DNA of 44,100 bases from Microscillaceae bacterium (lineage in GTDB: Bacteria; Bacteroidota; Bacteroidia; Cytophagales; Microscillaceae), in NCBI GenBank assembly GCA_011390205.1, contig JAABSX010000032.1, positions 1 through 44,100 of the forward strand, given 5' to 3'. The notes beneath the pieces were generated by a model that made no database searches, was not told the DNA's origin, and worked only from the letters and a program-made list of their open reading frames with translations. Within the stretch, counting starts at the first letter, position 1. Every line of letters begins with the position of its first letter. Positions 29,919-39,554 of the stretch are shown here, piece after piece. Made by a program: the position numbers and the translations under genes.

Positions 29919-31520
29919 TTATAACTCTTCTTTTTTAAGTCTTTTGCCCTCGAGGGTGTAGCATATTCTTACTTCTTCGTAATCCTCTTCGTCATAGTCG
30001 GAGTACTGAATCTCGGTAGTTTCTAGCTGTGCTGAGCCACCCCAAAGAAACGAAACGCCCATCATTGTATCATAGATAAAATCTTCTAGCAGGGGTTTGC
30101 CCTCAAAGTGATGCACGAGGTAGATATTTTCATCTGTGCTAAGCTCCTCATTGACCGAAATCACGGGAGGGTGATAGAGTGAATCAATGAGCATTTTTTT
30201 GTAATCTTCTCCTTTGCGGCTTTTTACGTAATATTCATAGACCCTCTTTTCTTGATTGACCCTCTGCCCCAGCACAAATAAATCGTGTTGATCCACAAAA
30301 TCTTGGTCGGTGAAGGTATTAATCAATGTAAAATCAGAAAAATGCTTGCGTAATGCAAAGATAGCATCTTTGCCTTTGAGTGTGTGGAGGTCGTAATTTT
30401 CTCGGTAAGTGATGCTCTGGTTTCTCTGAAAAATATAATCTATTTTGCCCTTGTTTGCCAGTTCTTCTACATACTGTACCAGCCTCAGCCCGATGGCGTA
30501 AGGATTTAATCCTGAGCGACTTACGGAGGTAACGGCAGCATTGAGGCGTGCATAGGCGACTTCGTGCCCTTTGATGCGTTCGTCTCTTCTAAAAAGCTCA
30601 TCGTGCCAATAGCTTGCCCATCCCTCATTGATGATTTTGGTGCGAATCTGCGGCTCAAAATACAAGGCGGTATTCCTGACAATGCTCATGACGAGTTTCA
30701 TCCATTCATTTTTTTCTTTTTTGAGGAAAGGTGAGTTGTCTCTGATGTATTCCATCACATCTATGGCAGGTCGGTCTATTTGTTTTTTGAGGTAGAGATT
30801 GTACTTGCTCTGAAACTCAGGATATTTCTTTTTGACATCATTAAAAAACCAAGATTCACCTAGATTTTGGTCTTGGGCTATGTACTGATTGTATTTTTCT
30901 ATGTCTCTATAGACCTCTCCCTCTGGGGCTTTGATGACTTTTTGTAGAAAATCTCCAAAATAATAATCCAGCATCTCAGGCGGGTTTAGCTCTGTGGCGA
31001 AGCCTTGCCTTGAGAGTTCGTCAAAGTAGCCCACTAGATTGTTGATGCAGCGGCTAAACTCAATGGCATAATCTACCCAGCGGCCGTGTTCGCTTCTGAG
31101 GCTTGTAATCAGTCTTTTGTCAGCGAGTGCCTGCCCCACGAAATCATCTCCCCAAGTTCGCTCAAAAAGTCTGTTATTCTGAAAAAAATCAATGTGGGCA
31201 ATCACATGATAAAAAATCATGATGTTCATCCAGTCAGGATTATTGTCATTGTAAAACGAAATAGCAGGGCGAGAGTTAATGACCGTTTCGTAAGGATTGC
31301 TCGGAGAAAGTTTGTATTTTCCTTGTTCTTTGAGTACCTCTACGTCATTGACCCAGTAATCATACAGCGTAGGAATCATGACCTTAGGCGAAAGCGAAAT
31401 CATATCCCTATTCGTAACGATGTACTCGAGTGTATCTTTGTCAAAGTGCAGCCCAGCCTCTCTAGCTCGGTCTTTGCACTCTTCCATGATTTTCTTGGTA
31501 TGTTGATTGATTAATTGCAT
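29919..31520 (-). CDS. spoVR: SpoVR family protein
   Basis: The 533-residue cytosolic protein, named after a Bacillus cortex-formation gene and YcgB of E. coli, has family motifs such as NPYETVINSRPAISFYNDNN, IFYHVIAHIDFFQNN and NEGWASYWHDELF. The histidines, aspartate and glutamate in the last two look like a metal-site arrangement, although no activity is established. The length is close to that of YcgB (about 510). It is the third gene of the prkA-yeaH-spoVR set on this strand, separated from yeaH by 202 bases that contain palindromic repeats. The three genes are thought to act together in stress or starvation responses. Confidence 0.95.
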   Translation of the reverse strand: MQLINQHTKKIMEECKDRAREAGLHFDKDTLEYIVTNRDMISLSPKVMIPTLYDYWVNDVEVLKEQGKYKLSPSNPYETVINSRPAISFYNDNNPDWMNIMIFYHVIAHIDFFQNNRLFERTWGDDFVGQALADKRLITSLRSEHGRWVDYAIEFSRCINNLVGYFDELSRQGFATELNPPEMLDYYFGDFLQKVIKAPEGEVYRDIEKYNQYIAQDQNLGESWFFNDVKKKYPEFQSKYNLYLKKQIDRPAIDVMEYIRDNSPFLKKEKNEWMKLVMSIVRNTALYFEPQIRTKIINEGWASYWHDELFRRDERIKGHEVAYARLNAAVTSVSRSGLNPYAIGLRLVQYVEELANKGKIDYIFQRNQSITYRENYDLHTLKGKDAIFALRKHFSDFTLINTFTDQDFVDQHDLFVLGQRVNQEKRVYEYYVKSRKGEDYKKMLIDSLYHPPVISVNEELSTDENIYLVHHFEGKPLLEDFIYDTMMGVSFLWGGSAQLETTEIQYSDYDEEDYEEVRICYTLEGKRLKKEEL

Positions 31521-31549
31521 TTCTTAGTGTTTCAGTTTTAATCCTGTTT

Positions 31550-31610
31550 ATTCTTCTACCTTCGGATTATAAATCCTCTTGCTCTTTAGTCGTGATTACA
31601 AATCCCGACT
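31550..31610. repeat. Pair of short palindromes (GGATTTrTAATC type)
   Basis: Two similar dyads, CGGATTATAAATCC at 31563-31576 and GTGATTACAAATCCC at 31592-31606, lie side by side just after the spoVR start in the yeaH-spoVR gap. They resemble short intergenic repeats common in Bacteroidota. Confidence 0.4.
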
Positions 31611-31613
31611 AAC

Positions 31614-31735
31614 ATCGAAGCCCCCCAGCCCCCGAAGGGGGAGTTTTTTTATTGTTAAAATGATATTTTGTTAAAGCCTTCAGCCCCCTAACCCCCGAAG
31701 GGGTAACCTCCCCCTTCGGGGGTTAAGGGGTAACC
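31614..31735. repeat. GC-rich palindromic repeats between yeaH and spoVR
   Basis: Three copies of a unit with core CCCCCGAAGGGGG: one at about 31619-31643, one at 31681-31707 and one inverted at 31709-31734. The last two form a hairpin with arms of about 19 bp. The composition is far more GC-rich than the surrounding genes. The third copy contains the yeaH stop codon. They look like REP-type repeats; the first copy is also followed by seven T on the plus strand. Confidence 0.8.
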
Positions 31736-33102
31736 AATCTTTTGATACTCTCGATAATTCTGTTCTCAGTGGCTTTTTCTGCCATGAGGCTGTCTAGGCG
31801 GATGAGCTTAGGGTAATCACTCAAAATGCCCGATTTTTCGAGGTATCGCTCAATGGTAGTACCGTCATTGTAGCCTGACCAGCTGTTTTTTGCGATGGTG
31901 ATTCCTACACGACTGGCATATTTGAGAATCTTACGGGTAGCTTCGAGCATTTGCTCGCCTGAGTTTTCCCAGTCATCGCCGTCTGTGCCATGGAATACAT
32001 AAATATTATAATCTAGAGCCAATTTTTCTTCTTCTACGATTTGGTTTACCAGCTCAAAAGCGGGATAAACACTTGTGCCACCTGCTACAGTAGATTTATA
32101 ATAGGTATAAAAATCTTCTACCTCTTTGGCTTCTGTGTCGTGCAAGATAAATCGGCTCAGTACATTTCCCTTGTACTGATACATCAGCCAAGAGTAAATA
32201 AACAAATGCTGTGAGGTGATGACTTCCGTGGGCTTGCCGTGCATAGAGCCCGAGTAATCCCTGAGAAAAAATACCACAGCCTGTGATTCATAGTCAGGCT
32301 CTTTGGATAAGATTCTGTAAACCCTGTCATTGGGGATGATGAGTAAGTTTTCACCAGCAAAATCTTCATCAGATTTGATATTTCCGAGTTGGATATTGGT
32401 TTCTATGACTTTTTTGAGGGTTGCTTTTTTGTCTAAAATCTGCCCTTGCCCTTGGTTGATGTCTGTGAGGTCATAGAGATATTTGCTCATTGATTTTTTC
32501 TTCCCCTTGTCTTTGAGGTTGGGCAGTTCAAATTTTTCGGTTAGGATTCTGCCCAAATCAAAAGCCTCTGTGGTCATGTCATGCTCGCCTCCACCACCTT
32601 CTCCTGCTCCTGAGCCACTTCCTTCACCCTCTTGTGGGTCTATGGGCTGCTCACCCAGCACCTCACCTACTTCGCCTTCGCCCGTGCCGCCTGTGGTTCT
32701 TTCTTGATTTTCTTGGGGAGAATTGCCGTGAAAGAATTTGGTTTCGGTAGTCGTAGGCACGATGACGACCTCTCCTTTTTGATTTTTGCTAGGCTTCATA
32801 AGTTTGCCCAGTCTGATTCTCCTCGGAAATCCGTCATTTTCTCTTTGCTTGTCTTTTTCTATCAGTTCGTCAAGGGTTTGCAGAGAGAGTGCATAGGGCA
32901 TTTTGGGCGGAAATACACCCTGAATATGGCTGAGGTCATTGTAATCGTAGATGCCCTGTATGCCCTTGGGCATGCGGCTTTCATCGGGTTCAATTTGATG
33001 ATTTTGAGTATTTTCTAATTCCCTCAAAATCAGTTTTTCTTGTTCCTCTGTGAGTCCTGCCTCTTTCAGTCGTTGGTATAATTGATAATTTTTTTCTTTC
33101 AT
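31723..33102 (-). CDS. yeaH: YeaH/YhbH family protein (DUF444, VWA-like)
   Basis: The 459-residue protein has an N-terminal charged region, a glycine- and glutamate-rich low-complexity linker (about residues 135-175), the family stretch EAFDLGRILTEKFELPNL, and a C-terminal von Willebrand A-like domain. That domain has a complete metal-ion adhesion site: D-x-S-G-S in LRDYSGSMHG, Thr in AGGTSVYP and Asp in FHGTDGDDW. Family members (UPF0229) pair with the PrkA kinase; E. coli yeaH is co-transcribed with yeaG and induced in nitrogen starvation. The last three codons and the stop (VTP, TAA) lie inside the repeat downstream. Confidence 0.95.
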   Translation of the reverse strand: MKEKNYQLYQRLKEAGLTEEQEKLILRELENTQNHQIEPDESRMPKGIQGIYDYNDLSHIQGVFPPKMPYALSLQTLDELIEKDKQRENDGFPRRIRLGKLMKPSKNQKGEVVIVPTTTETKFFHGNSPQENQERTTGGTGEGEVGEVLGEQPIDPQEGEGSGSGAGEGGGGEHDMTTEAFDLGRILTEKFELPNLKDKGKKKSMSKYLYDLTDINQGQGQILDKKATLKKVIETNIQLGNIKSDEDFAGENLLIIPNDRVYRILSKEPDYESQAVVFFLRDYSGSMHGKPTEVITSQHLFIYSWLMYQYKGNVLSRFILHDTEAKEVEDFYTYYKSTVAGGTSVYPAFELVNQIVEEEKLALDYNIYVFHGTDGDDWENSGEQMLEATRKILKYASRVGITIAKNSWSGYNDGTTIERYLEKSGILSDYPKLIRLDSLMAEKATENRIIESIKRLVTP

Positions 33103-33124
33103 GTTTTTTTATTATTCAAAGCCT

Positions 33125-33230
33125 CCTAACAGCCCCCTAACCCCCGAAGGGGGAACTTCTTTCTCCCTCCCCTGAGGGGAGGGCAGGGGTGGGGTCTAAA
33201 ACTCCCCCTTTGGGGGCTGGGGGGCTGCCT
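33125..33230. repeat. GC-rich palindromic repeats between prkA and yeaH
   Basis: One copy of the CCCCCGAAGGGGG-type unit at 33130-33156, an inverted variant (CCCCCTTTGGGGG core) at 33201-33228, and a second palindromic unit between them, CTCCCCTGAGGGGAG, near 33166-33182. Together they fill almost the whole 130-base gap, from 22 bases before the yeaH ATG to just after the prkA stop. Confidence 0.8.
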
Positions 33231-33232
33231 GT

Positions 33233-35314
33233 TTAATTTGCATCATCTTGCGTACAGAAATACTCAATCGTCTTTAAGGCACAGGTGCGGCAATAGCCTA
33301 GCTTGCTCTCCATGGTTTCAATCATTCGGTTGTAGAGTTTTTGGTTTTCTTCGTTGGTGCGGTTAGAGAGTGCCCCCACGAGGCTGCCTGCCCCAGCCAC
33401 ATCAGATTTAAGCCTGACATCCGTTACAGCTTTCACAAGTTCGTTGTTATCCATAAAATTATAGGTAGGGTCTTGAATCATCTTCTGCCCATAAATTTTA
33501 GAAATGGTGGTACGGTAGCTTTGTTTTTGTTCACGGTTTTTGAGTCCGAGCCTTTCTTCCACACTGTCTATAAAGGTTTCATCTATTTTGAGGGGCATGA
33601 GTTTGCCTGTTTGTGGGTCTTTATACGTCCAGATACGGTTAGAACCTAGGCTTTTGGCATCTATACCGATGACCATATTTACATAATTGAGCACATCTTT
33701 TTGAATGGCATCAGGCTCATCCATGTAGGCATTGAAGATGGCCGTCATGACATTTTTGCGGTGCAGCCCTCTGGCGATGTTCATATCACTGAGGTATTTG
33801 GCTTGGTCTTGGGCATCTCTGACATAATCCAAGATGACCTGCTCAAGTGCGATAAAGACATCTCCAGCATACATACATTTGCCTTCTTGGGTTTCGGAGC
33901 GTTCTAAGATAATCTGAATGGCTCGTCCTAGGTTGCGGTGTCCGAGTCCTTTTTGCCCAAATCTCTTGGTGATATCAGGCTCGGTGTTGAGTTCATTGAT
34001 GACCTCACGCAGCGTCTTGATGCTTTTTTCGCCTGCTACTTCTCCTGCTGCCAGTTTCATCATTTCTATGGGTGTGAGTTTGTCAGAAGGGGGCATCCTT
34101 GTGAGGGTAACCGCTACAGAAAGTGCGTAATTGAGGTTAGGGTCTATGTGCAAAAAATCTCCTGCAAAGGTTGTTTTTTCGTGGCTACCGATGGAGAACT
34201 GTGTCAGTTGCTGCTGCTGTAAGTAGTTGGTATTGTGGGCCATATACGAGATGCGGCACCTGTCCACGATGGGGGCTTGTTCTTTTTCTTCTAAGAATCT
34301 TCCAAATTCGGCATTGTTGCTGGTGGCTACGATGAGGGTATCAAGGGGCCATTTGAAGCCCTCCATTTCGATGGTTCGGTTTTGGATGACACCCAGATAG
34401 ACTTGCACGAGGTCTTTTTTATTTTTGAAAATCTCATCGGCAAAGTGAATTCCTCCCCCTGCCACCCTTGCCAAAGCCCCTCTGCGGAGGTCAAAGCGAT
34501 AAGGGTTATTGGTATCTACAATGTGTAGCAGCCTAGAGATGGATTCTTCACCGATTAAATCAACGGCAGAAGAGGTGATTTTGTCTTTGGCGGCATACTT
34601 GCCTGTGAGTGTGCCTCTAGATTCGCTGATGGGCACAGGGAAAATCTCTATGAAATCCATCATCTTTTTTAAATCTCCCTCACAATGCTCTCTGATTTCT
34701 CCCAAGATATAATCTGTGCATGCCCCTAGAGGTCTGTAAAGCTCATAAAAATGATCTACTTGGGCATCTTTAGCACCCAGTTTGGAGAGGTATTCTTTGT
34801 TGTCTTGCTCCTCTTCAAAGAGATTCATTGCCAAGACCAGTGGGTCTTCGAAGGTTTGGGATTCTATGTCTAAGATTCTGCCGTAGCCCCCGAGTTGGTC
34901 TAGGTTTTTGAATTTAAAAGAATAGCGGCGATTCTCAGGGATAGACACAAAATTACGGTAAACTTTGCCTAGATAATCCACAAAGAAGGTTTTGCCATTG
35001 CCAGGCTCACCAATGAGCACAAAAGCCATCTCTGAAGAAGAGCCTCCTTCGGCAGCATCTTTGACATAAGAGACGAAGCTGTTCATCTCATCATACATGC
35101 CAATGATGTGTTTTGAGCCTTGCCTAAATACCTGAAAATCATAGGTATTTTGCCCATTGACGATTACTTTTTCGATGGAATTAGGCCCGCCCAGTGTCAT
35201 GCGGGTGATGGCTTGAAAGGCATTCTCAAATCTTCGTCTTTGTCCGATGACTTCTTGGATATGGTGTGCGAGGGTTTTTGTGCTAGGGTCTGTTTTTTTT
35301 AGTGCTTTTTCCAT
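33233..35314 (-). CDS. prkA: PrkA-type serine protein kinase / AAA protein
   Basis: The protein of about 693 residues has an N-terminal AAA-like module with the Walker A motif GEPGNGKT (residues 102-109) and a C-terminal kinase-related domain of the PrkA family. PrkA (YeaG in E. coli) phosphorylates itself and a small number of targets, and AAA-type protease activity has been reported for Bacillus PrkA. The open frame extends to a TTG at 35383, but the ATG at 35314 (MEKALKKTDPSTKTLAHHI) is the natural start. The protein is longer than B. subtilis PrkA (631) and ends with a cysteine-containing tail, YCRTCALKTIEYFC. It heads the prkA-yeaH-spoVR set. Confidence 0.95.
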   Translation of the reverse strand: MEKALKKTDPSTKTLAHHIQEVIGQRRRFENAFQAITRMTLGGPNSIEKVIVNGQNTYDFQVFRQGSKHIIGMYDEMNSFVSYVKDAAEGGSSSEMAFVLIGEPGNGKTFFVDYLGKVYRNFVSIPENRRYSFKFKNLDQLGGYGRILDIESQTFEDPLVLAMNLFEEEQDNKEYLSKLGAKDAQVDHFYELYRPLGACTDYILGEIREHCEGDLKKMMDFIEIFPVPISESRGTLTGKYAAKDKITSSAVDLIGEESISRLLHIVDTNNPYRFDLRRGALARVAGGGIHFADEIFKNKKDLVQVYLGVIQNRTIEMEGFKWPLDTLIVATSNNAEFGRFLEEKEQAPIVDRCRISYMAHNTNYLQQQQLTQFSIGSHEKTTFAGDFLHIDPNLNYALSVAVTLTRMPPSDKLTPIEMMKLAAGEVAGEKSIKTLREVINELNTEPDITKRFGQKGLGHRNLGRAIQIILERSETQEGKCMYAGDVFIALEQVILDYVRDAQDQAKYLSDMNIARGLHRKNVMTAIFNAYMDEPDAIQKDVLNYVNMVIGIDAKSLGSNRIWTYKDPQTGKLMPLKIDETFIDSVEERLGLKNREQKQSYRTTISKIYGQKMIQDPTYNFMDNNELVKAVTDVRLKSDVAGAGSLVGALSNRTNEENQKLYNRMIETMESKLGYCRTCALKTIEYFCTQDDAN

Positions 35315-35964
35315 AAATAAGGTAATTTTTTTGGGCAATGTATTAAAAACATAGGTAAATGTGTCAATTCGTGAATAAGCCAATGCTCAGTAGGTTCTAT
35401 GAAAAGTAGTTCAAATCAACTTTAATGGCCTACTTAAATTGGTATCTTTTGATAAAGATTTGCTGTGGAGTACTCTATTTTGCGGATAGATAAAATTTAC
35501 TTATCAGCAGCTAGGCTCAAGTGAAACTTTTTTGTGTTTGCTCCAAATAATATTCTGAGATTATAACGTGTGTAATTTGATAAACGTAAACTGAAAACGC
35601 ATGCACATCCAATTTAGTAAGTTTTTTGAGAAAAGTCAATAATTTAACATTTAATTTTGGAGGGGGATTGGTGCGTTTTTCTGGGTGTTTTAATGCAACT
35701 ATACATTTTTCTTAAAAATACTCCTCAGGCGAAAGGCTTGCTATGATGTACCATCTAAGAAATTGCTTTTTTTCTTTTTTGCATCACTTTGTCTGTATGT
35801 GCCATCAGCCCAATACTGCATTGTAAAAATAGGCAAAGCAGCCACGAAAACAGATGTTAGCACATCAATTCTTAGATTTAGACCTAAAATCAAGGTAAAT
35901 TTATGGATAATTACAGAACACATACTACCTTTATAGATTCAATGAAATTCAAAAAAAGCAACGT
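35315..35964. other. Divergent intergenic region between prkA and the SGNH gene
   Basis: About 650 AT-rich bases that must hold the promoters of prkA (minus) and the SGNH/MBOAT genes (plus). I found no exact TAnnTTTG for either; TACCTTTA near 35926-35933 is one base off for the plus strand. A 60-codon minus-strand open frame (35741-35923) is the only coding candidate and is discussed under findings. Confidence 0.6.
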
Positions 35965-36750
35965 ATGTCTGATAATTATAAACTCACTCGCTGGGTACTC
36001 TTTGGATTTATTATTTTGATATTGCTTTTGGGCTATTCTCTCTGGGACAATGCCACCGAAAGCACCCCTCGTCCACAAAGTCTGGAAGAGATAGAGGCAT
36101 ACCTTGCCCAAAACAAAGATTCACTTGGAGCAGAGCTTTTGAGTAGCCAAGCTATAGATTCAAGCCAAATTATAGATACTCGGCCGCAGCTTATCCTATT
36201 CATTGGCGACTCTATGGCTCAGGGCTTAGAGATTCCACTAAAAAAATATGCTGCTTTTAATGGGCATCAGCTCAACACCATCGCCAAGCAAAGTGCCACG
36301 ATTGTCTCTTGGGTGGGCAGCGACAGCACAGGGCGGCTCAGACAAACCCTCCAAGAGCTAAAGCCCTCTTACCTTATCATCTGTCTGGGTGCCAATGAGC
36401 TCATGACCAATGGCTTGGAGGTCTATGAGGGGTATATCCGCAACATCATAAAGCAGAGTGGCAATACCAAACTTATCTGGGTGGGGCCACCCAACTGGCG
36501 TAAAGACAATGGGCTGACAGACCTCATCGCAAAAGAACTCGGTGCAGGGCGTTATTTTTCTTCAAAAGATTTAACTTTGCCCCGAGCAGGAGACGGGATA
36601 CACCCCACTTATCAGGGGTATTTTGCTTGGGCTGATACACTCACTCAGTGGATACGAGAAGAGAGCCAGCATAAAATCTTGCTAGAAAAGCCACAAACGC
36701 CTGTCAAAGAGATAGACTCTTTGAATCTTAAAGAAGCAAAAAGACCCTAA
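35965..36750 (+). CDS. Membrane-anchored SGNH hydrolase (DUF459-like)
   Basis: The 261-residue protein has an N-terminal membrane anchor (about residues 9-25) and an SGNH/GDSL fold facing the periplasm. The catalytic blocks are G-D-S83 (FIGDSMAQGL), the oxyanion motif G142-A-N144-E, and D210 with H213 (GDGIHPTYQG). Proteins of this type transfer or remove acyl groups on polysaccharides; when beside an MBOAT gene they usually act as the periplasmic acyltransferase partner (as PatB or AlgJ/X do). The MBOAT gene follows 15 bases later. The glycan acceptor is unknown. Confidence 0.88.
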   Translation: MSDNYKLTRWVLFGFIILILLLGYSLWDNATESTPRPQSLEEIEAYLAQNKDSLGAELLSSQAIDSSQIIDTRPQLILFIGDSMAQGLEIPLKKYAAFNGHQLNTIAKQSATIVSWVGSDSTGRLRQTLQELKPSYLIICLGANELMTNGLEVYEGYIRNIIKQSGNTKLIWVGPPNWRKDNGLTDLIAKELGAGRYFSSKDLTLPRAGDGIHPTYQGYFAWADTLTQWIREESQHKILLEKPQTPVKEIDSLNLKEAKRP

Positions 36751-36765
36751 ATTAGTAATCAAGGA

Positions 36766-38235
36766 ATGGATTTTATCTGGCAAAATGTTTATGAGGCGTT
36801 GATTTATTCTCCCAAAGCACCTATTTTATTTAATAGTGGCTTGTTTATGGGTTTGTTTATGGTGTTTACTTCTATCTATGCACTTTTTTACAATCACAGC
36901 AAGGCGAGGGTGGCATATGTCTTGGCATTTAGTCTTTATTTTTACTATAAATCTAGCGGATTATTTGTCTTGAATCTGCTCTTTTGTATTCTGTTTAATT
37001 ATTATTTGGGCAAAAAAATACCGCTCATTCAGTCTCACAGGCTCAGAACTTGGGCAGTGGCTGGGGGCATTGTGCTCAATGTGGCTTTTTTGATGTATTT
37101 TAAATACACTAACTTTCTGCTCAGCAATGTAAGTTATTTGTTCAATGCTGAATTTCATCGCTTAGAGATTTTCTTGCCTATCGGGATTTCTTTTTATACT
37201 TTTCAGACGGTCAGTTACTTGGTAGATGTGCACAAAGAGCGGATAGAACCCTGCCAAAATGTATGGGATTTTGGGTTTTACCTTAGTTTTTTTCCTCAAC
37301 TGGTGGCGGGGCCTATCGTCAGGGCAAAAGATTTTTTGCCTCAGATTCACCAGAAAATCATCTTCAGACGTGAAGACATGGGCAATGGCATGTTTATGGT
37401 CATCAAGGGATTGGTCAAAAAAGCCCTCATTGCAGATTATCTTGCACAGTATGTAGATATTATATATGACAACCCTACGGGCTATTCGGGTTTTGAGAAC
37501 CTGATGGGGATGTATGCTTATACGCTTCAGATTTACTGTGATTTTTCGGGATATTCGGACATGGCGATTGGGCTGGCGTTGATTCTGGGCTTCAAGCTGC
37601 CCGAAAACTTCCGAAGTCCTTACAATTCAAAAGACATCACAGAGTTTTGGAGGAGGTGGCACATTAGCCTTTCCACTTGGCTGAGAGATTACATTTATAT
37701 TCCGCTAGGAGGCAACAGGCACGGCGTAGAGAAGCAGTATCTTTTCTTGATGCTGACGATGCTCATCGGAGGGTTTTGGCATGGTGCAGACTGGAAGTTT
37801 GTTTTTTGGGGCGGAATGCACGGGGCAGGGCTGATTATCCATAAAATCTTTGGGGAAACTGCCAAAGAAATGGAGTGGAATACAAGGCTGCTCACGCCTA
37901 TTGGCTGGCTCATTACTTTTCATTTTGTGGCATTTCTCTGGATATTTTTCCGTGCGGATAGCTTTACAGTGGCAGCACTTTCTATCAACAGGATAGTCTT
38001 TGATTTGGATTGGGCTTATCTCCTTCCATTTTTGCAGACACGTGGGCTGCTCGTGCTGATGCTGTGTGTAGGCTATGCACTTCATTTTACTTCAGAAAAA
38101 GATAAAAACCATCTGAGAGAATATTATAGCACATTGCCCCTCCTTGCCAAGGCACTCTTGCTGATACTCATTATTCAGGCAGTGCTACAGATACAGAATG
38201 AAAATGTGCAGCCTTTTATTTATTTTCAGTTTTAG
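36766..38235 (+). CDS. MBOAT family O-acyltransferase (AlgI/PatA-like)
   Basis: The 489-residue polytopic protein has about ten or more membrane segments. Diagnostic features are FFPQLVAGPIVRAKDFLPQI, the arginine-rich DITEFWRRWHISLSTWLRDY, then IYIPLGGNRHG, and the catalytic-histidine motif GGFWHGADW (H339). It carries acyl groups from a cytosolic donor across the membrane to a periplasmic transferase, here most likely the SGNH protein encoded just upstream. O-acetylation of a surface polysaccharide or peptidoglycan is the likely outcome, by analogy with AlgI and PatA. Confidence 0.95.
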   Translation: MDFIWQNVYEALIYSPKAPILFNSGLFMGLFMVFTSIYALFYNHSKARVAYVLAFSLYFYYKSSGLFVLNLLFCILFNYYLGKKIPLIQSHRLRTWAVAGGIVLNVAFLMYFKYTNFLLSNVSYLFNAEFHRLEIFLPIGISFYTFQTVSYLVDVHKERIEPCQNVWDFGFYLSFFPQLVAGPIVRAKDFLPQIHQKIIFRREDMGNGMFMVIKGLVKKALIADYLAQYVDIIYDNPTGYSGFENLMGMYAYTLQIYCDFSGYSDMAIGLALILGFKLPENFRSPYNSKDITEFWRRWHISLSTWLRDYIYIPLGGNRHGVEKQYLFLMLTMLIGGFWHGADWKFVFWGGMHGAGLIIHKIFGETAKEMEWNTRLLTPIGWLITFHFVAFLWIFFRADSFTVAALSINRIVFDLDWAYLLPFLQTRGLLVLMLCVGYALHFTSEKDKNHLREYYSTLPLLAKALLLILIIQAVLQIQNENVQPFIYFQF

Positions 38236-38381: not shown

Positions 38382-39554
38382 ATGAAGTATCCAAACATTT
38401 ACATTCTATCAGTCCTCCTATTGGCTATACTTCAAGTAAATACACTCAGGGCACAAGACGAAGAACTTGTGAACATCTTTAATTATCCTAATTTTAGCAA
38501 TGCCCAAGATTTGAGGATTGTCCATAATACACAAATTACCAGAGGAACTGCCCGCCTTACACCTGCCAAAGTCGGACAAAAGGGAGGCATATGGTACACC
38601 AAATCACCCATTCAAGTAGATAAGGGCTTCAGCACAGCGTTTGCTTTCAGAATCTCTGGCTCAGGAGGTACACAAAATTGCTTTGGGGCAGATGGTTTTG
38701 CCCTGATTATCCATAACTCACACCAAGATTTGACAAAAGGCATCAACGGAGGAGGGATGGGCTACGATGGCATTCCTAACTGTATTGCGATAGAATTTGA
38801 TACTTTTGACAACAATGAACGCAGTGCCAATCATATCAGCATACAGACCAAGGGGCATGAGCCTAATAAAAGCAGCTTAGACGCTTCTGTTGCGATGAAT
38901 AGAAACCTAGGATTTAGTCTTGAAGATGGGCGAGTACACAATGTGAAAATTAACTACCGAAATGGTAAAATAGAAGTGTTCGTGGACAATATGCAAAACC
39001 CTATACTTATCGCTATTTTAGACATCGCCAATACCATAGCCCTAGACCAAGGGCAGGCTTGGGTGGGCATCAGTGCTGCCACAGGTGCAGGCTTCTCTAA
39101 GCACGATATCTTGCGATGGTCTATGCAAACGACCAGACCTACGCAAAAAATTACACAAACCAGTAGCACAACTCCCGAAAAACCCATCTTAGAAAAACCC
39201 ACTGTATTAGAAGATAGAAAAGTGGATTATGTCAAGATTATCAAAGTAAACTCGCCCGAAGTGCTTGTCAGGGTGTGGGATAATAAAACGGAAGATGGAG
39301 ACCTTATCTCTCTCAATCTGAATGGAGAATGGATTACGCAAAACCTGTACTTGAAGAAAAAAGTCAAGACATTTAAGGTAAATCTTAGGCAGAAAGAAAA
39401 CTTTTTGGTGCTGCATGCGCTCAATCTAGGCAGAATCCCACCCAACACAGCTGCCATCTCTATAGTAGATGGTAAAAACAAACAAACCCTTGTGCTAAGC
39501 TCAGATTTAGAGCAAAGCCAAGCCATTTCTATTGTCTATGAAGGCGGGGAGTAA
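38382..39554 (+). CDS. Secreted L-type (legume-like) lectin with C-terminal beta domain
   Basis: The 390-residue protein has a signal peptide (about 1-24, ending in LRAQ), a bacterial L-type lectin domain (about 28-250) and a second beta domain (about 285-388). Lectin features include TAFAFRISGSGG, the metal/sugar loop GADGFALIIHN, the acidic NCIAIEFDTFDNNE that should bind calcium, and GQAWVGISAATGAGF. The C-terminal domain (VLVRVWDNKTEDGDLISLNL, FLVLHALNLGRIPPNTAAIS) recurs in other secreted Bacteroidota proteins. No T9SS sorting domain is seen, so it is probably periplasmic or released another way. It likely binds glycans; no enzymatic site is visible. Confidence 0.85.
   Translation: MKYPNIYILSVLLLAILQVNTLRAQDEELVNIFNYPNFSNAQDLRIVHNTQITRGTARLTPAKVGQKGGIWYTKSPIQVDKGFSTAFAFRISGSGGTQNCFGADGFALIIHNSHQDLTKGINGGGMGYDGIPNCIAIEFDTFDNNERSANHISIQTKGHEPNKSSLDASVAMNRNLGFSLEDGRVHNVKINYRNGKIEVFVDNMQNPILIAILDIANTIALDQGQAWVGISAATGAGFSKHDILRWSMQTTRPTQKITQTSSTTPEKPILEKPTVLEDRKVDYVKIIKVNSPEVLVRVWDNKTEDGDLISLNLNGEWITQNLYLKKKVKTFKVNLRQKENFLVLHALNLGRIPPNTAAISIVDGKNKQTLVLSSDLEQSQAISIVYEGGE

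Follow-up and report, generated by a model that had tools for sequence, protein, structure and literature searches.

REP sequences are thought to spread in trans through RAYT transposases. Some bacterial palindromic repeat families have no known enzyme, and the Rickettsia palindromic elements (RPEs) are not known to have a partner enzyme. According to the passages cited, the hallmark of REP-RAYT is a RAYT gene lying between two repeat copies in inverted orientation (PMC2817692), GTAG REPs lend stop codons and occur inside genes, and CGTC-tagged repeats were not associated with transposase genes in one study (both PMC3733652). RPEs are ~150 bp long and were described from Rickettsia (PMC10969869).

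The repeats investigated here lie in a stretch of 44,100 nucleotides from a Microscillaceae bacterium (contig JAABSX010000032.1), hereafter the window. They resemble REP/REPIN-RAYT systems in being dispersed short palindromes that form inverted pairs, with the gene of a DNA-cutting enzyme found between two inverted copies. They differ in that the enzyme is a Vsr-like PD-(D/E)XK nuclease (DUF559) and not a Y1 HUH transposase, the GTAG or CGTC tag is absent, the gene of the enzyme is often embedded in frame in housekeeping genes, and none was detected in the genome with the most units. Like RPEs, they are palindromic elements in frame within protein-coding genes; unlike RPEs, which were compared by description, they have a full form that carries a nuclease gene and occur in Bacteroidota and beyond. 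As with MITEs of bacterial insertion sequences, the short forms can be seen as arising by deletion from a longer element that has inverted ends and a coding region, but neither a transposase belonging to a known IS family nor a target-site duplication was seen, and the ends are ~26-nt hairpin units. As with homing endonuclease genes and inteins, related species differ in whether a nuclease gene occupies a given site in a conserved gene; however, no intein or intron domain was detected when two DUF559-containing hosts were scanned with Pfam, DUF559 is read through as one of the domains of its host, and the element occupies several sites besides intergenic copies. We lean, with modest confidence, towards the reading that the window repeats are non-autonomous (miniature, internally deleted) derivatives of a palindrome-ended DUF559 element, whose nuclease would recognise and spread them.

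The repeats occupy the two gaps of the prkA-yeaH-spoVR operon, all three genes of which are on the minus strand. The features are as follows, with the outer limits of unit B set by eye.

29919-31520, minus strand: spoVR, an open reading frame with Pfam SpoVR.
31619-31643, plus strand: unit A, variant CAG..AG, with predicted mRNA pairing with 31708-31732 across 64 nt.
31682-31706, plus strand: unit A, head-outward partner of 31708-31732.
31708-31732, minus strand: unit A, diverged form TACCCCTTAACCCCCGAAGGGGGAG, which runs into the end of yeaH and provides its TAA stop.
31723-33102, minus strand: yeaH (DUF444), an open reading frame with a Pfam match, whose final codons and TAA stop come from unit A.
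33131-33155, plus strand: unit A, consensus form AGCCCCCTAACCCCCGAAGGGGGAA, head directed to yeaH.
33162-33197, minus strand: unit B, a second C-rich palindrome with the core CCCTCCCCTCAGGGGAGGG at 33165-33183, between the A units of the prkA-yeaH gap.
33202-33226, minus strand: unit A, variant AGCCCCCCAGCCCCCAAAGGGGGAG, head directed to prkA.
33233-35383, minus strand: prkA, an open reading frame with Pfam PrkA and AAA_PrkA, ending in a TAA stop.

The open reading frames and their Pfam matches (PrkA, DUF444 for YeaH, and SpoVR) confirmed the operon named in an earlier note on this DNA, and the gap sizes given there were right: 130 nt between prkA and yeaH (33103-33232) and 202 nt between yeaH and spoVR (31521-31722). 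The repeats it reported are real, as CCCCCGAAGGGGG was found with up to two mismatches at five places in the window, every one in the two gaps, compared with a shuffle mean of 0.39 and 0/100 shuffles that reached five. Its inverted copies able to form hairpins are present as inverted pairs, and strong RNA folds were predicted in mRNA sense for the prkA-yeaH gap (-69.6 kcal/mol, z -4.2) and for 31605-31745 (-62.1 kcal/mol, z -3.7). In the same sense, 6 nt separate the TAA stop of prkA from the first unit A (33226 end). The note had seen the unit nowhere else in the window, which holds, but it is not restricted to this operon: the count proposed there gave 18 exact unit A cores in the window's genome (G000; 4.51 Mb, 124 contigs), with 0 for the reversed-pattern control. 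The unit at 31708-31732 extends beyond its gap into yeaH to supply its stop. The second palindrome, CCCTCCCCTGAGGGGAGGG (33165-33183), occurs at seven places in the genome with up to two mismatches (control, 0). Elsewhere in the window, 38382-39554 encodes a protein with a legume-lectin domain, after a pair of genes for DUF459 and MBOAT proteins at 35965-38235.

Unit A is a conserved unit of ~26 nt, AAGCCCCCTAACCCCCGAAGGGGGAATT, which is mostly paired with the C-rich heads outward and whose consensus contains neither the GTAG nor the CGTC tetranucleotide tag. Since its conservation ends after ~26 nt, a longer MITE with conserved arms was rejected. Among adjacent units up to 200 nt apart, 77/103 were head-outward, 18 and 6 were in the two tandem orientations and two were head-inward; when the spacer of a head-outward pair was at least 250 nt, DUF559 lay inside in 4/8. 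The first linker base covaries with the second base after the hairpin, and this foot pair has the top mutual information among all unit A column pairs. The counts were T-A 202, C-G 40, A-T 3 and T-G 6 (Watson-Crick, 245/263), and both T-A and C-G occur in each of G000, its unit-rich relatives G396 and G403, and Flavobacterium.

Allowing one mismatch, CCCCTAACCCCCGAAGGGGG was present in 12/395 genomes sampled from the phylum, G000 included, and in 4/15 genomes of the family, with 202 (G396), 66 (G403), 18 (G000) and 8 copies. A 22-mer scan of named genome contigs detected at least 117 stretches across Bacteroidota and one contig labelled Bdellovibrio. Hosts among the matches listed were Flavobacterium, Lutibacter, Sphingobacterium, Pedobacter, Cellulophaga, Aequorivita, Salegentibacter, Gillisia, Spirosoma, Arcicella and MAGs of Bacteroidales. 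Unit A was also found in 17 viral contigs of IMG/VR (L198-L214).

The majority of the placements (193/268) were intergenic and 75/268 were inside open reading frames; these placements were not deduplicated and include overlapping loci of one place (L002/L003, L006/L007, L008-L010). For 90 of the 263 distinct units, the stop of an upstream same-strand open reading frame of at least 100 codons was within 12 nt, compared with 45/2955 random positions, and 27 of these 90 units use their own TAA as that stop. These results support the description of unit A as REP-like in form: short, palindromic, dispersed, in inverted pairs and near gene ends. In G000, units were found inside a Type ISP restriction gene (L002; in frame, aligned to PDB 7lo5), an Eco57I-type methylase gene and an HTTM/VKGC gene, and an IleRS gene (L127, aligned to PDB 8c8w) contains an in-frame unit insertion. 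The open reading frames with internal units include LeuRS, IleRS and MetH, and in several of them a DUF559 domain lies between two units; in-frame insertion into protein-coding genes was thus seen at L002, L127, metH and LeuRS. The peptide encoded by the left unit is typically SPLTPEGG and that by the right unit PPSGVRG. Since GTAG REPs also lend stop codons and occur inside genes, these habits are not new in themselves. Hairpins of the units would form in the mRNA and may tune message stability or stoichiometry, as the earlier note proposed, but unit A is also found within genes, at the ends of genes unrelated to these and in genera far apart, so it did not arise to regulate prkA-yeaH-spoVR.

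The yeaH region was fetched in five relatives, and spoVR and prkA were nearby in G395 only (L334). The comparison with a relative lacking the repeats, which had also been suggested, came out in part: the yeaH-spoVR gap of G395 is 70 nt, versus 202 in the window, and lacks unit A, but it contains a different GC-rich hairpin. The short gap fits an insertion in the window's lineage, and the other hairpin, CCCTGCCGG..CCGGTAGGG, is also open to a regulatory reading.

DUF559 (PF04480) was found in 18/26 genomes, and 19 of its 31 places lay in open frames of at least 700 codons. The hosts, which were identified via Pfam or by reading flanking residues, included LeuRS, MetH, IleRS, RecG-like and AddA-like helicases, methylases and an in-frame HisF fusion. 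At L315 (G363), DUF559 is in frame at the N terminus of a HisF-like protein and is flanked by CCCCCTTTAGGGGG-type palindromes. Among 56 distinct DUF559 matches, 15 were bordered on each side, within 220 nt, by a CCCCC-NNN-GGGGG hairpin, and 11 of the 15 were at one metH site. Joined metH flanks, used as the query, matched 143/150 Flavobacterium genomes. By hand count, metH was uninterrupted (in one piece) in ~118/150, and in a further set it was split at the joint with the open frame kept. In 15 Flavobacterium genomes (14 complete inserts among the fetched loci, and G324 with 441 nt), the 36-nt linker was replaced by 429-489 nt, every insert being a multiple of three and encoding DUF559. The empty linker was 36 nt in 32/34 loci, and 45 and 35 nt in the other two. 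Of the 20 split or unusual metH loci that were fetched, L367 and L382 were cut by a contig end and L380 and L383-L385 were uninterrupted. The nine inserts whose ends were read start with a C-rich unit-A-type palindrome and end with an inverted unit; at L371 the hairpin of the starting palindrome is damaged. A nuclease gene between two inverted copies of unit A was therefore seen in these metH inserts, in genomes other than G000. The site holds both forms, full in L103, L137, L138 and L180 and short in L108, and comparison of occupied and empty sites by eye revealed no evident target-site duplication.

For LeuRS, 143/149 genomes of the class matched the query; by hand count, the match was a single piece in 118 and split into at least two in 22, and 19 of these 22 split loci were fetched. 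DUF559 was present in 10/19, nine of them in frame; the tenth, a 454-nt insert in LeuRS of G700 (L412), breaks the frame, by assembly error or true disruption. At least four of the 19 (L414, L417, L425 and L426) contained short palindromic inserts and no DUF559, and the remaining split loci, including L409 and L420-L423, had longer linkers. The linker of LeuRS in G000 (L428) is 33 nt. In L425 (G724) and L426 (G752), the in-frame insert is another palindrome, which starts with CGTC (DNA start CGTCACCCTGAAC) and encodes the peptide RHPELVSGS..MLKQVQHD. Because such unrelated palindromes and longer linkers are found at the LeuRS site, the site is permissive and same-site insertion partly reflects this, so we do not claim same-site insertion as proof of homing.

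The DUF559 domain matches its profile and PDB 3hrl (E=1e-19), and E15, Q35, D44, E55, D57, H61 and D70 (first-row numbering) are invariant in all 24 aligned members. In the passages cited, YcjD was placed in the PD-(D/E)XK superfamily, close to Vsr (PMC1189080), and a Caulobacter DUF559 protein was tied to DNA damage (PMC12907096). To compare the flanks, 23 of 30 DUF559 loci were used, L321-L326 and L330 being dropped as partial, at a contig edge or differently placed. The 46 flanks had a median best GC-rich hairpin score of 17, compared with 9 in 734 controls (p=2e-18). By eye, the left and right palindromes were alike in 12/23 loci and unlike in 11/23; L302 has unit A on one side and a different palindrome on the other, and L301, L304, L318, L328 and L329 have no clear palindrome on one or both flanks. 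On a tree of 60 DUF559 domains, built without seven weak loci and rows shorter than 90 residues, palindrome class A required three changes, compared with 14-21 in the ten of 200 shuffles that were inspected. When one MetH row was kept, class A made up 5/39 rows and three changes were still needed, indicating that the signal in the tree comes from the metH clade and is weak outside MetH.

From these observations we infer the mobility and function of the element. Its full form would consist of unit A, the DUF559 nuclease gene and an inverted unit A. The nuclease would recognise the palindromes, probably when they are extruded or single-stranded and form hairpins whose foot is mismatched; a Vsr-like, mismatch-sensing enzyme would suit this foot, in which unpaired bases lie between the covarying pair and the stem. 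It would cut at the palindromes, recombination would then copy the element, and short forms may spread in trans, by analogy with REP and RAYT. Two short forms would have landed at the stop codons of prkA and yeaH, and any effect on mRNA stability in prkA-yeaH-spoVR would be a by-product. The strongest objection is that no DUF559 match was found in G396 or G000, both draft assemblies, so that the proposed partner is missing from the genome richest in units; in G403, DUF559 is present only as a contig-edge fragment. Neither a transposition event nor nuclease activity was observed. MTES_1575, another candidate nuclease, was not found in G000, G396 or G403. The absence of DUF559 from G000 and G396 could be due to loss of the source gene, a gap in the drafts or another enzyme.

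Alternatively, pre-existing palindromes could have been settled by the nuclease as a passenger or a homing endonuclease, with the units spread via gene conversion, replication errors or some unrecognised enzyme. We regard this as unlikely, about one chance in a handful. The abundance of unit A in genomes where no DUF559 was found, the unrelated palindromes minus DUF559 at the LeuRS site and the unlike ends of nearly half the loci all speak for it, whereas the ends that match in the other 12, as expected of a nuclease with its own ends, and the restriction of class A to few places on the nuclease tree speak against it. It is somewhat less probable still that the units are selected RNA or DNA structures, that is, 3'-end hairpins that protect or terminate transcripts and are maintained by a regulatory function at the ends of genes such as those of prkA-yeaH-spoVR. 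Under a stricter control with the same cut-off of at least 100 codons, 63/184 units after a stop-like triplet followed a true stop of an open reading frame, compared with 555/20061 intergenic stop-like triplets, and this enrichment, the covarying foot pair, the strong predicted mRNA folds in the window and the different hairpin in the G395 gap are what selection for structure would lead one to expect. Against it are the copies in frame inside genes, the G395 gap of 70 nt versus 202 with no unit A, and the terminator-like sites, which in the region occur at chance rate and which in the units are on the strand opposite the mRNA.

We consider it very improbable that a tyrosine (Y1) transposase of the IS200/IS605 kind moves the units as REP sequences. 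The earlier note had suggested REP-type mobility directed by a tyrosine transposase, of which the REP-like form stands and the RAYT link does not. The size, palindromic form, inverted pairs, gene-end location and stop-lending of unit A are those of REPs, and G000 encodes a Y1 transposase; however, neither of its two Y1 matches has a unit within 1.5 kb. The Y1 search gave 81 matches in 21/26 genomes, including the relatives with 202 and 66 units, and 62 matches were fetched as loci of their own, 19 being left out. None of the 62 had unit A on both flanks, and RAYT was rejected as the partner of unit A, which also lacks the GTAG or CGTC tag. At L028, a unit-like pair with other loops lies ~1.4 kb from the Y1 gene, on one side only, and two-mismatch look-alikes of the unit occur at L027, L035, L059 and L080. 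Several of the 16 Y1 loci inspected closely carry their own palindromes. The Y1 transposase at L027 is flanked by GCCCCGAAGGGGC in 66-bp tandem repeats, a distinct repeat and not unit A. The Y1 gene at L019 (G000 contig 47) has nearby palindromes such as CCAGTCTTCAGACTGG, which are not unit A.

The pairing of a DUF559 nuclease with such palindromic repeats looks undescribed. In the open-licence PMC literature, preprints excluded, the peptide strings encoded by the units were not found, the DUF559/ycjD articles contained nothing on repeats in their titles and the starts of their abstracts, and combined searches returned no link between DUF559 and repeats in the portions of text covered. Strings of the unit sequence occur, in the excerpts returned, in two articles, one about CRISPRs of Synechococcus and one about the binding of RNAs by prion protein. 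To keep and express a nuclease gene by lodging it in frame within essential enzymes, with no splicing, would be unusual. For annotation, DUF559 domains and SPLTPEGG or PPSGVRG peptides within proteins would flag insertions and not host function.

GC-rich palindromic flanks are often present around DUF559 in four phyla (Bacteroidota, Proteobacteria, Cyanobacteria and Deinococcus). At 12 loci beyond Bacteroidota (Azospirillum, Sphingomonas, Sinorhizobium, Methylobacterium, Synechocystis, Picosynechococcus, Pseudanabaena, Deinococcus and E. coli), the flank hairpins scored above controls (p=4e-9, with the near-identical L386 and L397 both counted); no clear palindrome was seen to the left of L388 and L393 or to the right of L386 and L395. 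In E. coli, a 50-nt repeat overlaps the end of ycjD, between sapF and fabI (L390, L398). This repeat was found in 4861/5426 E. coli genomes, with a per-genome median of 16 places, and its best place was 80-90% identical in most records. It may resemble BoxC. BoxC is 50 nt with 22 copies, and in older work 56 bp with 32 (PMC2267715), a structured repeat of ~50-56 bp whose 22-32 copies are near the count of the ycjD-linked repeat. More tentatively, at somewhat less than even confidence, Vsr-like PD-(D/E)XK nucleases (DUF559/YcjD) may form a class of mobile element that has its own pair of hairpin ends, much as RAYT has REPs, and that inserts in frame into interdomain loops of housekeeping proteins (LeuRS, MetH, RecG, an AddA-like helicase and methylases). 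There it would be produced as one of the domains of its host, and the short derivatives that it gives off would constitute several orphan palindromic repeat families, among them the repeats of the window and the dispersed E. coli repeat. A palindrome-lodged nuclease in these four phyla would be a candidate partner for orphan repeats and would give DUF559/YcjD a testable role. On cyanobacterial plasmids, the DUF559 genes at L388, L394 and L396 adjoin genes for DUF1156 or PglX-type methylases and have C-rich palindromes on at least one flank.
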